Shown: in pieces, positions 46,736-51,032 of the stretch
Position numbering within the stretch: position 1 is the first letter of the stretch
How the letters are laid out: every line of letters starts with the position of its first letter
Origin: Billgrantia antri
Lineage (GTDB): Bacteria > Pseudomonadota > Gammaproteobacteria > Pseudomonadales > Halomonadaceae
DNA: 64,000 nt
Direction of reading: 5' to 3'
Assembly (NCBI RefSeq): GCF_019430905.1
Contig: NZ_JAHYCA010000008.1
Coordinates: 1-64,000, forward strand
Notes under the pieces: model-generated
Databases searched by the model: none
Seen by the model: only the letters and a program-made list of their open reading frames with translations
What the model was told of the DNA's origin: nothing
Made by a program: the position numbers and the translations under genes

Positions 46736-46994
46736 GTGCGTACTCCTTTCGCGTGCAATGTGTTGCTGCCTAGTCTAGGGCGCAGGCAGACGATACTTAA
46801 GCAATATCTGTGCATGATTGCGATAGACTGTATGCATGGTTGTCCAGCCGTGCCCGCCGCTGCAACACGCTGCGCGCTCGTGTCGCGCCCCATTCGGGAA
46901 CCCAGGCGCGGTGCGGGACTCATAAGGCATCAGACGGCTTGCACGGTGGGCCGGGCTGCGTAGACTGCGGCCAATGATGAACAGGAGAAGCGCC

Positions 46995-47549
46995 ATGCGC
47001 CTGTGGTGGTGGATGATGCCCGGCTTGGCCTTGCTGGCCGGCTGTGAGACGACGCCCTCGGTGCTGCCTTCCGCGGAGCCGCGGCCCGCTGCCGAGTGCC
47101 GCTGGGAGACCGAGGGCATCGAAGCCCGCGAGTGGGTACGCCGAGCACTCGATGCGCTGGAGGCCCAGGACTTCGTGGTGCGTGACACCGAGCTGGCGCT
47201 GGGTGTGGTCAGCGCCGAGCGCACCAGGACCATTCCCGGTTACGGTGATCGCTATGATGACTGGGAGAGGACTGGCTTCTTCGGCGGCTTCGGCCTGGGC
47301 CGTGGTCGCGGCGTCTCCACCGGCGTGATGATCGGCTTCGGCGGTGCCGGTGGCAGCATCACCCAGGATGCCACACAGCTCGAGCGTGTCTCGGTTGTCG
47401 CCGATGAAGGTTGGGTACGAGTCAGCCGCGACATTCAGGTGATCGATTGGCGGGGTGAGCTGCGCGAAACGCGCAGCGGCAGCGATAGTGCCTTCTGCGG
47501 TACGCTGCGTCAGGCGATGCAGGCTGCTCGTGATAGGGAGGAGCCCTGA
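46995..47549 (+). CDS. Lipoprotein of unknown function (first of a related pair)
   Basis: A 184-residue lipoprotein. The signal peptide is tryptophan-rich (RLWWWMMPG) and ends in lipobox LLAGC near residue 17. The mature part has a helix-strand unit ALEAQDFVVRDTELALGVVSAER, a glycine-rich turn region (FFGGFGLGRGRG) and a paired cysteine near the end (AFCGTL). I do not recognise the family. The start at 46995 has AGGAG eight bases upstream. It overlaps the next gene by one base (TGATG), and the same helix-strand unit recurs there. Confidence 0.75.
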   Translation: MRLWWWMMPGLALLAGCETTPSVLPSAEPRPAAECRWETEGIEAREWVRRALDALEAQDFVVRDTELALGVVSAERTRTIPGYGDRYDDWERTGFFGGFGLGRGRGVSTGVMIGFGGAGGSITQDATQLERVSVVADEGWVRVSRDIQVIDWRGELRETRSGSDSAFCGTLRQAMQAARDREEP

Positions 47550-47908
47550 TGCGCGGAATTGCCATGGCACTGCTGCTCGTCATGCTGTCGGGCTGTGCCG
47601 CCACCATGCAGCCACCGGAGCCTCGCGAACTGTCGCTTGCGGCAGCACCCGAGCCGACCCTGCAGGAAATCGTCGGCCTGTTGATGGAAGAGGGCTACGT
47701 GATCCGACATGCCGATGCCGGGCTGGGGCGCGTCGAAGCGGTGCTCGCCCGCTGGCCTGGCTATCGGGTGAGAGGAGAGGTCACTGCCGAAGGCCAAGGT
47801 AGCCGAGCTTCGCTGACGGCGACCCGAGGCGGTGTGCCGCTGCCACCTCATCTGCTCGACCCGCTGCTGGCCGAGCTTCAGCGTCGGCTGGGACTGGCGC
47901 CCCGATGA
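47549..47908 (+). CDS. Lipoprotein of unknown function (second of a related pair)
   Basis: A 119-residue lipoprotein with signal peptide and lipobox MLSGC at residues 12-16. The mature unit IVGLLMEEGYVIRHADAGLGRVEAVLAR resembles the corresponding unit in the upstream protein, but the glycine-rich part is gone. Function is unknown. It is in an operon-like series that continues with the DUF1007 and RcnA-type genes, so a role in metal export at the envelope is possible but unproven. Confidence 0.7.
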   Translation: MRGIAMALLLVMLSGCAATMQPPEPRELSLAAAPEPTLQEIVGLLMEEGYVIRHADAGLGRVEAVLARWPGYRVRGEVTAEGQGSRASLTATRGGVPLPPHLLDPLLAELQRRLGLAPR

Positions 47909-47939
47909 CTTTCCCCCTTCGAATGAGCGCATTTATTCT

Positions 47940-48611
47940 ATGAGCCTTCTGTTTCGACGCTTCCGTTCGGGGGCGAGACGCACCGCGCTGGCAGGCCTGC
48001 TTGCCTTGTTGCCGGCTCTGGCCCTGGCCCATCCGCATGGCTGGATCGACATTCGAGTCCGTCTGGTGGTCGACGAGGAGGGGCGTCTTGAAGCGCTGCA
48101 CCAAGCCTGGCGCATGGACCCCTTCTACAGCCTGGTCCTGATCGAGGAGCTGAGCCAGACCGAAGGTGGCCTGGAGGCAGGCCTCGATCGGCTGGGCGGC
48201 GAGATTCGCGGCAATCTCAAGCCGTTCGATTACTTCACCGAACTTCGTATGGGCGACGATGCGCTGCGTCTTGGCGACGTGACCGAGTACACCGTGATGG
48301 AGCGTGACGGCAGGGTGGAATTCGTCTTCCTCCTGCCGCTGGCTGAGCCCCGGACATTGAGCGAACAGACGCTGCAGTACCAGGTATTCGACCCGACCTA
48401 CTATCTCGAGGTCGTCCACGCAGCGGAAGGTGACGCCCCCGATGACGACGCCCTGACGGTGGGCGGCGGGCTGAATTGTACCACCCGCGTGCTGCCTGCC
48501 GACCCCGATCCCGAGCGGGTCATGGAGGCCTCCATGCTCGATGTGCAAGATCAGGCCGAGCCCGGCCTGGGACGGCACTTTGCCGAAACCGGAGTAGTGG
48601 AATGCGAATAA
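47940..48611 (+). CDS. DUF1007 family exported protein
   Basis: A 223-residue protein with a signal peptide (cleavage near ALA-HPHG). The mature N-terminus HPHGWIDIRVRLVVDEEG is the DUF1007 hallmark; a His-rich exported start is expected for a metal-handling partner. DUF1007 genes often precede nickel/cobalt exporters of the RcnA/NicO type, as here, and may act as a periplasmic accessory. The ATG is at 47940 near the stop of the second lipoprotein gene; the exporter starts inside its last codons. Confidence 0.85.
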   Translation: MSLLFRRFRSGARRTALAGLLALLPALALAHPHGWIDIRVRLVVDEEGRLEALHQAWRMDPFYSLVLIEELSQTEGGLEAGLDRLGGEIRGNLKPFDYFTELRMGDDALRLGDVTEYTVMERDGRVEFVFLLPLAEPRTLSEQTLQYQVFDPTYYLEVVHAAEGDAPDDDALTVGGGLNCTTRVLPADPDPERVMEASMLDVQDQAEPGLGRHFAETGVVECE

Positions 48612-49672
48612 TGGCCAGGATATTCGCCGGAACTCCCCTCAAGGCATGGCGGGCCGGACTGATATTGTTGGCTCTGCTGGCTCTCGCCGCTCTGGTGCTG
48701 CTACTGCTCGGGCAGGGCGGGCTACAGGCGATGAGCCTGCAACTGCTGGCGTGGCAGCGCGATCTCCACCGTGCCCTCACCCTGGCCATCACCGAGTTTT
48801 CCGGCACGCCTTCGCCGGCGGCCTGGGCCACGCTGCTCGGTATAAGCTTCGGCTACGGTGTGTTTCATGCCGCCGGCCCGGGGCATGGCAAGGCGGTGCT
48901 GACGACCTACCTCCTCTCGCAGGGTGGCGCCACGCGCCGAGCGCTGGCGCTCTCTTTTGCCGCCTCGCTGCTGCAGGGGCTGGTGGCCATCGGCCTGGTA
49001 GTGGTGCTGGTGCATGGCCTGGGCTGGGTGACGCGCCAGGCGATGGGCAGTGTTGCCTGGGTCGAGCAGGCCAGCTTCCTGATGGTGACGTTGCTGGGTG
49101 GCTGGCTGTGCCTGCGAGCGATTCGTCAACTGCGGCGACCGCTCGCTGAGCCGGTGCATGCACACGGTCGACATGGTCATCACCATCACGGCCATGATTC
49201 AGCCTGCTGCGGCGGTCATCATCATGTCGACCCGCAGCAGGCCACCGACTGGCGCACTGCGCTGGCCACGGTGGTTGCCATCGGCATTCGCCCTTGCAGC
49301 GGCGGTGTGCTGCTGCTGGGGGCGGCCACCCTGCTGAATCAGTTCGCCGCCGGTGTCGCGGCGGTCATGGTGATGGCGCTGGGGACGGCGCTGACCGTCT
49401 CAGGTCTGGCCTTGGCCAGCGTCATGGCGCGCGGCTGGGCCGAGCGCCGGTTGGGCAAGCAGAGTGGCCGGTGGCGAATGGGACGCCTGCTGGGCTGGGC
49501 AGCCCTGGGCGGTGGGCTCGCCATCATGGCGCTGGGGATTTCGTTGTCCGTCACCGGGGTGACGAAACCCAGCACGGCACCCCTGCTGGGTGATCCGCCG
49601 ACCCACAGCGGCCCGGCAGAGCGGTCCCCAGCGCCCGGTGGCCATCCCTTTGGAGGGCGATCGAGCTCATAG
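48602..49672 (+). CDS. Nickel/cobalt exporter, RcnA/NicO family
   Basis: A 356-residue membrane protein with about six to seven hydrophobic segments. GYGVFHAAGPGHGKAVLTTYLL in outline is the NicO signature with conserved histidines. A metal-sensing loop rich in His and Cys lies at about 186-209 (HAHGRHGHHHHGHDS, then CCGGHHH). The ATG at 48602 has GGAG seven bases upstream and overlaps the DUF1007 stop. A second in-frame ATG at 48611 also overlaps. Ni(II)/Co(II) specificity is inferred from the family. Confidence 0.88.
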   Translation: MRIMARIFAGTPLKAWRAGLILLALLALAALVLLLLGQGGLQAMSLQLLAWQRDLHRALTLAITEFSGTPSPAAWATLLGISFGYGVFHAAGPGHGKAVLTTYLLSQGGATRRALALSFAASLLQGLVAIGLVVVLVHGLGWVTRQAMGSVAWVEQASFLMVTLLGGWLCLRAIRQLRRPLAEPVHAHGRHGHHHHGHDSACCGGHHHVDPQQATDWRTALATVVAIGIRPCSGGVLLLGAATLLNQFAAGVAAVMVMALGTALTVSGLALASVMARGWAERRLGKQSGRWRMGRLLGWAALGGGLAIMALGISLSVTGVTKPSTAPLLGDPPTHSGPAERSPAPGGHPFGGRSSS

Positions 49673-50399: not shown

Positions 50400-50462
50400 T
50401 AAGTGGCCATTGCTTCACGGCAAGGAATGGATTTCCCTTCTTCGTTTCAAGGAGATACGACC

Positions 50463-50594
50463 ATGAAGAAAGCAATAGCCCTGAGTTTCGCCCTGCTGAT
50501 GGCCGCTGGTGCACTGGCGGGCTGCAATACCATCGAAGGCGCCGGTGAAGATATCGAGCGTGGTGGTCAGGAAATAGAAGAAGCGGCCGAGTAA
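50463..50594 (+). CDS. Entericidin-like micro-lipoprotein 2
   Basis: A 43-residue lipoprotein: MKKAIALSFALLMAAGALAGC signal peptide in outline (C at about residue 21), then NTIEGAGEDIERGGQEIEE. This is the canonical EcnA/EcnB pattern. The ATG at 50463 has a strong AAGGAGATA site; the reading frame is open further upstream but not homologous. Together with the gene at 50229 it forms a tandem pair. Confidence 0.9.
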   Translation: MKKAIALSFALLMAAGALAGCNTIEGAGEDIERGGQEIEEAAE

Positions 50595-50696
50595 CACGCA
50601 CGGTCCGGCCTGGCAGCGCACGGGTGATCTGGCAGTCTTCCCGTGCGCTGCCTGAAGATTTCTCCCTTGCTCCTCATTCCTTTAGCGAGACCTTAC

Positions 50697-51032
50697 ATGG
50701 TAAGCCCTCTGCGGTTGTGCCTGATGTCTGTCGGCCTGACGCTACTGACAGGTTGTACTCATATGTCGAATGCCAGCAATCCTGCATCCGAACCCGCCCC
50801 CAAACCGCCTCGGGTCAGCGAGTCAGAGGATGCTTGCGGAGCGCAGCGCGTACAGGACCGGGTCGGCCGACGCTACGACGAAGCGCTGGGCGAGTCGATA
50901 CGCCGCGAGAGCGGCGCCGCTACCCTACGGACCATCCGCCCGGGGCATGCCTACACCATGGAGTACCGGGGCGATCGGATCAATGTCCATCTCGACAGTA
51001 GCGATACCATCACCAATATCGGCTGCGGCTGA
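50697..51032 (+). CDS. Peptidase inhibitor I78-family lipoprotein
   Basis: A 111-residue lipoprotein with lipobox LLTGC near residue 20. The mature domain starts with a Cys in EDACGAQRVQDRVGR and has LRTIRPGHAYTMEYRGDRINVHLD followed by a terminal Cys (IGCG), the inhibitor I78 fold with its probable disulfide. Such proteins inhibit serine peptidases. The ATG at 50697 is preferred because it places a normal signal peptide before the lipobox. Confidence 0.85.
   Translation: MVSPLRLCLMSVGLTLLTGCTHMSNASNPASEPAPKPPRVSESEDACGAQRVQDRVGRRYDEALGESIRRESGAATLRTIRPGHAYTMEYRGDRINVHLDSSDTITNIGCG

Follow-up and report, generated by a model that had tools for sequence, protein, structure and literature searches.

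BamC (NlpB, PF06804) binds BamD through a long disordered linker, which is followed by two helix-grip domains, and is a member of a protein complex, according to the available part of PMC3359395. Flpp3 is called unique to Francisella in the available part of PMC12723454, and the corresponding part of PMC4688374 reports an internal hydrophobic cavity for it. For Bordetella pertussis, the accessible section of PMC9858536 describes an operon in which a NicO-type gene and DUF1007 occur together with a TonB receptor and a manganese-type ABC transporter. These systems were compared with a locus in a 64,000-nucleotide stretch of Billgrantia antri (contig NZ_JAHYCA010000008.1 of assembly GCF_019430905.1, positions 1 to 64,000), hereafter the window, in which two lipoprotein genes, lipoprotein 1 (LP1) and lipoprotein 2 (LP2), precede the genes of a DUF1007 protein and a NicO family transporter. 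We tentatively read the locus as two side-by-side units, a BamC-type helix-grip outer-membrane adaptor pair LP1–LP2 and an independent DUF1007–NicO metal module, and give this reading slightly less than an even chance.

LP1 (46995–47549, + strand) and LP2 (47549–47908, + strand), a relative of LP1, were placed by open reading frames and by reading of the DNA. The stop of LP1 and the start of LP2 share one base at 47549 (TGATG), as the initial annotation had stated. The window's genome comprises 4.39 Mb, and its LP1 is 88–89% identical to the LP1 of named Billgrantia genomes. The distribution of the genes was analyzed in two samples that overlap in genomes (G, L and g numbers below denote genomes, loci and genera). 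The set of 58 genomes had LP1 in 35 and LP2 in 34, all within the window's genus-level group. The sample of 121 Halomonadaceae genomes had LP1 in 100 and LP2 matches likewise in 100, 99 of these full-length; a weak partial LP2 match in G356 (1.4e-5) was excluded from the count. The two genes adjoined on one strand in all 99 genomes with both (97 were found by the script, and G018 and G332 were recognised by eye) and overlapped in all 32 loci measured, by one base in eight and by four bases in 24. LP1 and LP2 are predicted to be translationally coupled.

An order-wide sample gave matches in 13 of 293 genomes, including 12 Halomonadaceae and one weak match (9.3e-4). A scan of genome contigs produced 70 loci, all of Halomonas, Billgrantia or Franzmannia, with patterns that, being taken from near relatives, favour those genera, and a plasmid search found one Halomonas record. 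Clear copies of the pair were thus confined to Halomonadaceae in the genomes searched, and the pair is a genuine, old and uncharacterised feature at the family level. A description of it was not found in a literature search whose coverage left out most subscription journals. Literature on Halomonas, lipoprotein and BamC included nothing evidently about LP1 or LP2, and the papers mentioning DUF1007 did not carry this name in their titles or abstracts.

Direct comparison of the window's LP1 and LP2 by BLASTP was insignificant (E 6.4). Profiles were built from 31 LP1 sequences (alignment A1, the window and 30 of the 33 extracted relatives; L033, L066 and L069 were excluded as badly cut, split or partial) and 33 LP2 sequences (alignment A2, the window and all 32 relatives). 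In L066 (genome G032), LP1 is broken into two frames that overlap, probably through a frameshift or an error in sequencing. The signal peptides were stripped before the profiles were compared, because leaving them would have biased the score. The mature profiles matched with a score of 46.3 and a probability of 93.7 over 42 aligned columns, against a maximum of 16.1 among 100 column shuffles and 14.2 with the reversed profile. The aligned columns cover the helix, F/Y-V-V/I-R and LG-x-V-x-A, and the unit that the initial annotation had seen in both lipoproteins was recovered. A search with the LP1 profile, signal peptide included, also retrieved LP2 from the window's genome (6.4e-4).

LP1 had no Pfam or NCBIfam matches and LP2 none above the cut-off. 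When all 31 LP1 and 33 LP2 sequences were scanned with Pfam, there was no widely shared family beyond lipid-attachment motifs and weak scattered matches, among them DUF6639 in eight of the 33 LP2 (best E 0.005) and DUF6491 in seven (best E 0.034). A PHROGs search gave nothing useful. The match of LP2 to TraN (0.0024, below the cut-off) was rejected; it spans residues 5–43, the signal peptide and neck. Also the tandem lipoproteins PA0061/PA0062 (NF052250) were discarded as a parallel: LP2 reached 11.4 bits against a cut-off of 55, within the signal peptide only, the model had no matches in the window's genome (G000), and proteins of this type seem by eye unrelated to LP1 and LP2.

The lipobox cysteine of LP1 is Cys24, and Cys42 and Cys175 are invariant (numbered from the longer open reading frame, starting at 46974) and perhaps form a disulfide. 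The residue following the lipidated cysteine is Q or E in all 31 LP1 and A or V in all 33 LP2 sequences. By the +2 rule, Asp in this position retains a lipoprotein at the inner membrane; since the residue is never Asp, both proteins are probably sorted to the outer membrane, facing the periplasm. Potential metal ligands with at least 80% conservation were Cys42, Cys175 and scattered Asp/Glu in LP1, and His54, Met46, Asp56 and Glu63 in LP2. The conserved residues of the mature proteins did not make evident a His/Cys/Met cluster like a metal site, a structural search for such sites not having been made.

The AlphaFold2 models had a predicted local distance difference test score (pLDDT) of 88.7 for LP2 and 75.0 for LP1, in which a Gly-rich loop at residues 97–127 was below 50. 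Both models have the order strand–helix–strands–helix in a single domain, the first strand of which follows the lipidated cysteine after 9 residues in LP2 and 18 in LP1. Foldseek ranked BamC top for both models (LP2 to 6lys, 2.5e-5, and 2yh6, 5.1e-5; LP1 to 2laf, 7.6e-4). VIA placed Flpp3 first for both, LP2 matching 9nlt_B with Z 12.7 (root-mean-square deviation (rmsd) 2.0, 92 aligned) and LP1 matching 6pny with Z 10.1 (rmsd 2.0, 89 aligned), and it matched BamC 2laf with Z 9.7 for LP2 (rmsd 3.0, 93 aligned) and Z 8.1 for LP1 (rmsd 4.6, 103 aligned). It is safe to state that LP1 and LP2 have one shared, predicted helix-grip fold. Against a profile of Halomonadaceae BamC, LP2 scored 28.7, a value reached by none of 200 shuffles. 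Sequence profile searches of the PDB with LP1 and LP2 listed neither BamC nor Flpp3 at E values up to 10.

Kinship, coupling, predicted fold, sorting signal and near-restriction to Halomonadaceae are computed properties of LP1–LP2. From fold, location signal and pairing we infer an adaptor function, and the physical pairing, the membrane and the partner are likewise set out here as a proposal. LP1 and LP2 would be made from coupled genes and anchored in the outer membrane, facing the periplasm, where they would act together, probably paired, each through one BamC-type helix-grip domain. As adaptors they may bind an outer-membrane protein or assembly complex and steady it, much like BamC on the BAM complex. 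DUF1007–NicO would be a self-contained transition-metal transport module, lying downstream on the same strand in the window's lineage, which may share the LP1 transcript.

The DUF1007 gene (47940–48611, + strand; PF06226, 1.3e-47, 163 bits against a cut-off of 27) has a signal-peptide-like start and follows the end of LP2 at 47908 after a gap of 31 bases (47909–47939, + strand, by sequence reading). The NicO gene (48602–49672, + strand; PF03824, 6.5e-32, 111.4 bits against a cut-off of 27.7) encodes a transporter with a His-rich loop; it starts either at 48602, overlapping DUF1007 by ten bases, or at the next ATG, 48611, overlapping it by one. The order and placement of the four genes, the gap and the overlap of DUF1007 with the exporter agree with what had been noted initially. 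By coordinates, NicO adjoined DUF1007 in all 28 genomes of the 58-genome set that have DUF1007. Among the 34 genomes of this set with the lipoprotein pair, DUF1007–NicO was adjacent to the pair in 21, elsewhere in seven and DUF1007 was missing from six, one of which (G002) is only 79% complete.

The family table covers 120 of the 121 Halomonadaceae genomes; G421, absent from the listed matches, was left out of it and counted as having neither in the Fisher test, and G035 was scored as linked from coordinates only. DUF1007–NicO was adjacent to the lipoproteins in 47 of the 120 genomes, within 8 kb in eight and apart in 22, 23 genomes had the lipoproteins without DUF1007, 14 had DUF1007 without the lipoproteins, and six had neither. 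The adjacent order LP1–LP2–DUF1007–NicO spans nine genera, so that its recurrence in other genomes, proposed initially as a check, was confirmed. The presence of the lipoproteins was not associated with that of DUF1007 across the 121 genomes (odds ratio 1.67, Fisher p = 0.40), in a test that is rough as the genomes are not independent. Of the 33 LP1 loci read, 32 retain the gene of the unrelated HIT protein, 30 pepD, 29 dps and 19 DUF1007, and because the whole neighbourhood is frozen in this manner, adjacency is a weak guide to shared function. DUF1007–NicO forms a second stable pair that looks like a separate unit, neither required by the lipoproteins nor dependent on them.

Relocated copies of DUF1007–NicO were observed in L051, L053, L055–L057 and L099, beside genes of metal-uptake type. 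Among the genes next to the relocated copies read are those of TonB receptors, of FecCD-type permeases together with a periplasmic binding protein, and of ABC-3 permeases, which belong to the Zn/Mn class; ZnuA lies beside DUF1007–NicO in a genome without the lipoproteins, and one relocated locus (L096) had no such neighbours among the genes listed. The relocated copies suggest Zn, Mn or Fe contexts. The window's NicO reached 32.6 bits with the RcnA-type model NF007454, below its cut-off of 195. A transition-metal role of DUF1007–NicO is likely, and nickel/cobalt efflux is to be taken as an unproven family label, because the relocated copies adjoin iron, zinc or manganese uptake genes.

Upstream of LP1, a candidate sigma-70-type promoter, TTGCAC-16 bases-TAGACT, was read from the sequence at 46939–46966 (+ strand); it was not among the sites listed by a simple promoter scan. 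Its -10-like element TAGACT (46961–46966) puts the predicted start of the transcript near 46973, and the LP1 start at 46995 therefore appears better than that of the longer open reading frame at 46974. Of 31 genomes, 29 have TA[ACG]ACT in the 75 bases preceding LP1, whether or not the lipoproteins are linked to DUF1007–NicO (shuffles: mean 0.6, maximum 4), and GCGTAGACTGCG upstream of LP1 was nearly invariant across seven close relatives. The retention of TA[ACG]ACT shows the LP1–LP2 pair to have a conserved predicted transcription start of its own. The gap between LP2 and DUF1007 was -4 to 134 bases in 19 linked relatives, where, by simple promoter scoring only, even the strongest sites were poor (4 to 7 of 12). 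Also in the window, a simple scan called no promoter or terminator at 47908–47940, where one would, according to the initial annotation, have spoken against its proposal. A single transcript from LP1 through NicO is plausible in the window's lineage.

Two further kinds of regulatory site were sought upstream of LP1. Zur- and Fur-like metal-regulator boxes, searched for by consensus in 19 upstreams of LP1 and 11 of relocated DUF1007, some of the latter with approximate starts, matched at about chance and were rejected; Zur-like sites with at most three mismatches occurred in two of the 19 LP1 upstreams, while shuffled upstreams had them at a rate of 8.6%. An envelope-stress promoter of the form GGAAC-N(15-20)-TC..A was found in seven of 31 loci, all linked (chance 0.95% per upstream), and the window's own site fails this pattern; a stricter pattern had no matches across the window's genome, and the promoter is kept as a lead. 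In the region 46883–46920, GGGAACCC has TC..A some 18 bases after it, as also in L058–L063 and L070. This site is kept solely in the Billgrantia-like clade, approximately 100–120 bases upstream of LP1, and resembles, as a motif, a site of an extracytoplasmic sigma factor.

Several results weigh against the division into an adaptor pair and an independent metal module. The strongest point for a tie between the lipoproteins and DUF1007–NicO comes from a DUF1007–NicO tree (41 rows, quick method), on which the label "linked" needs just three changes compared with a shuffled mean of 12.5; this suits a linkage that is old or was gained few times, and would be compatible with a functional tie. LP1 can do without LP2 at least in two genomes, since no LP2 frame was seen in G001 (L044), where LP1 has a longer C-terminus, and LP2 is a decayed remnant in G399 (L103). 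The likeness to BamC is uneven: the hhalign probability of LP2 with BamC is low (23), LP1 scored 13.8 with the BamC profile, and 107 of 200 shuffles scored equally high, and the pLDDT of the LP1 model, 75, is middling. PR-10/START-like and KA1 domains also match LP2 in VIA (Z 8.6–10.8), and the fold leaves the function unfixed because the helix-grip fold is common.

The alternative readings differ in what LP1 and LP2 would serve. The initial annotation had proposed a four-part envelope system, in which the lipoproteins would aid DUF1007–NicO at the outer membrane, where they would retain metal or hand it on. Its linked cluster was partly upheld: the genes lie in the same order on one strand, as in the 47 family genomes above, DUF1007 even overlaps LP2 by four bases in G029, and with neither terminator nor promoter called between LP2 and DUF1007 one transcript is plausible. 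The obligate joint metal role was not supported, as the pair occurs without DUF1007 or apart from it in 23 and 22 genomes and DUF1007 alone in 14, the presences are unassociated, the mature lipoproteins lack an evident conserved cluster of metal ligands, and with HIT in 32 of 33 loci the neighbourhood as a whole is frozen; we regard such a system as improbable. A different gene partner is seen in g121 and g123, where LP2 and DUF1007 lie 3.2–4.1 kb apart (eight genomes). In the two genomes read (G351 and G353; loci L088 and L090) the space between them holds a dCache sensor kinase and a sigma-54-type response regulator. The kinase (dCache_1, HisKA, HATPase_c) and regulator (Response_reg, Sigma54_activat) were called in L090, where the first four bases of the kinase gene are also the last four of LP2, and the architecture of L088 matches. 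Since these genes follow LP2 there, the pair can head different downstream genes. That LP1–LP2 belong with the kinase and regulator, as envelope sensors or signal inputs, is nevertheless very improbable, as the arrangement concerns two genera, is suggested in the other six genomes by spacing alone, and in the window no kinase or regulator gene lies between LP2 and DUF1007.

The remaining alternatives concern what the helix-grip domains do. LP1–LP2 could bind a hydrophobic ligand, a lipid or lipid-like molecule, and not a protein, through a cavity of the fold: Flpp3, for which the part of PMC4688374 available reports a cavity, heads the VIA matches of both, and many PR-10/START-like ligand binders match LP2. 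Ligand binding does not, however, follow from the fold, the cavity in LP1 and LP2 is putative, and the domains of BamC, which share the fold, function within a protein complex in the portion of PMC3359395 consulted, and we consider this reading rather unlikely. LP1–LP2 might also represent BamC in split form: the two helix-grip domains, joined on one chain in BamC, would here be separate proteins, each with its own lipid and co-translated with the other, that act as a second, Halomonadaceae-specific accessory of outer-membrane assembly beside the normal BamC. The window's genome has its own BamC (G000:C5:469518-470498), 52% identical to the BamC of a relative, the latter beside a dapA-like gene, and because of it LP1–LP2 do not replace BamC. 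We hold a split counterpart to be quite doubtful; if true, it would be a new kind of accessory in outer-membrane assembly. With the adaptor pair and the independent metal module preferred, LP1–LP2 are a conserved pair of a salt-loving family, without a profile-family match, for which the fold gives the first testable functional idea. The locus also calls for caution in inferring function from operon order, the module 31 bases away being often missing or elsewhere.

The four genes are flanked by genes on the opposite strand, upstream of LP1 by those of a Dps-type ferritin and a DJ-1/PfpI protein and downstream of NicO by that of a HIT protein. Farther downstream on the + strand there are two small envelope genes, for an entericidin-type lipoprotein (PF08085) and a peptidase inhibitor I78 protein (PF11720), at 50403–50594 and 50643–51032 in this order.

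In comparison with the described systems, the window's NicO shares with the nickel/cobalt exporter RcnA the family PF03824 and a His-rich loop, but lies far under the cut-off of NF007454. The Bordetella genes BP3077–BP3082 resemble the window in having DUF1007 beside a NicO-type gene, and the relocated Halomonadaceae copies have similar neighbours (TonB receptor, metal ABC transporter); in the available part of PMC9858536, however, no lipoprotein pair is named among them, and the window's DUF1007–NicO adjoins no TonB receptor or ABC gene. Flpp3 is, like LP1 and LP2, a lipoprotein with a single helix-grip domain and the top VIA match of both, but with 6–8% identity in the fold alignment. To our knowledge, it has no tandem relative. 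BamC has in common with LP1 and LP2 that it is a lipoprotein with a helix-grip domain, as in the predicted models, and with predicted outer-membrane sorting, whereas it has two such domains against one in each of LP1 and LP2, and a long linker against their 9–18 residues between lipidated cysteine and first strand. LP1 and LP2 had no matches to PF06804 at E values up to 10, a search in which the HMMER filters drop weak ones. LP1 and LP2 are not BamC, but they may work like it.

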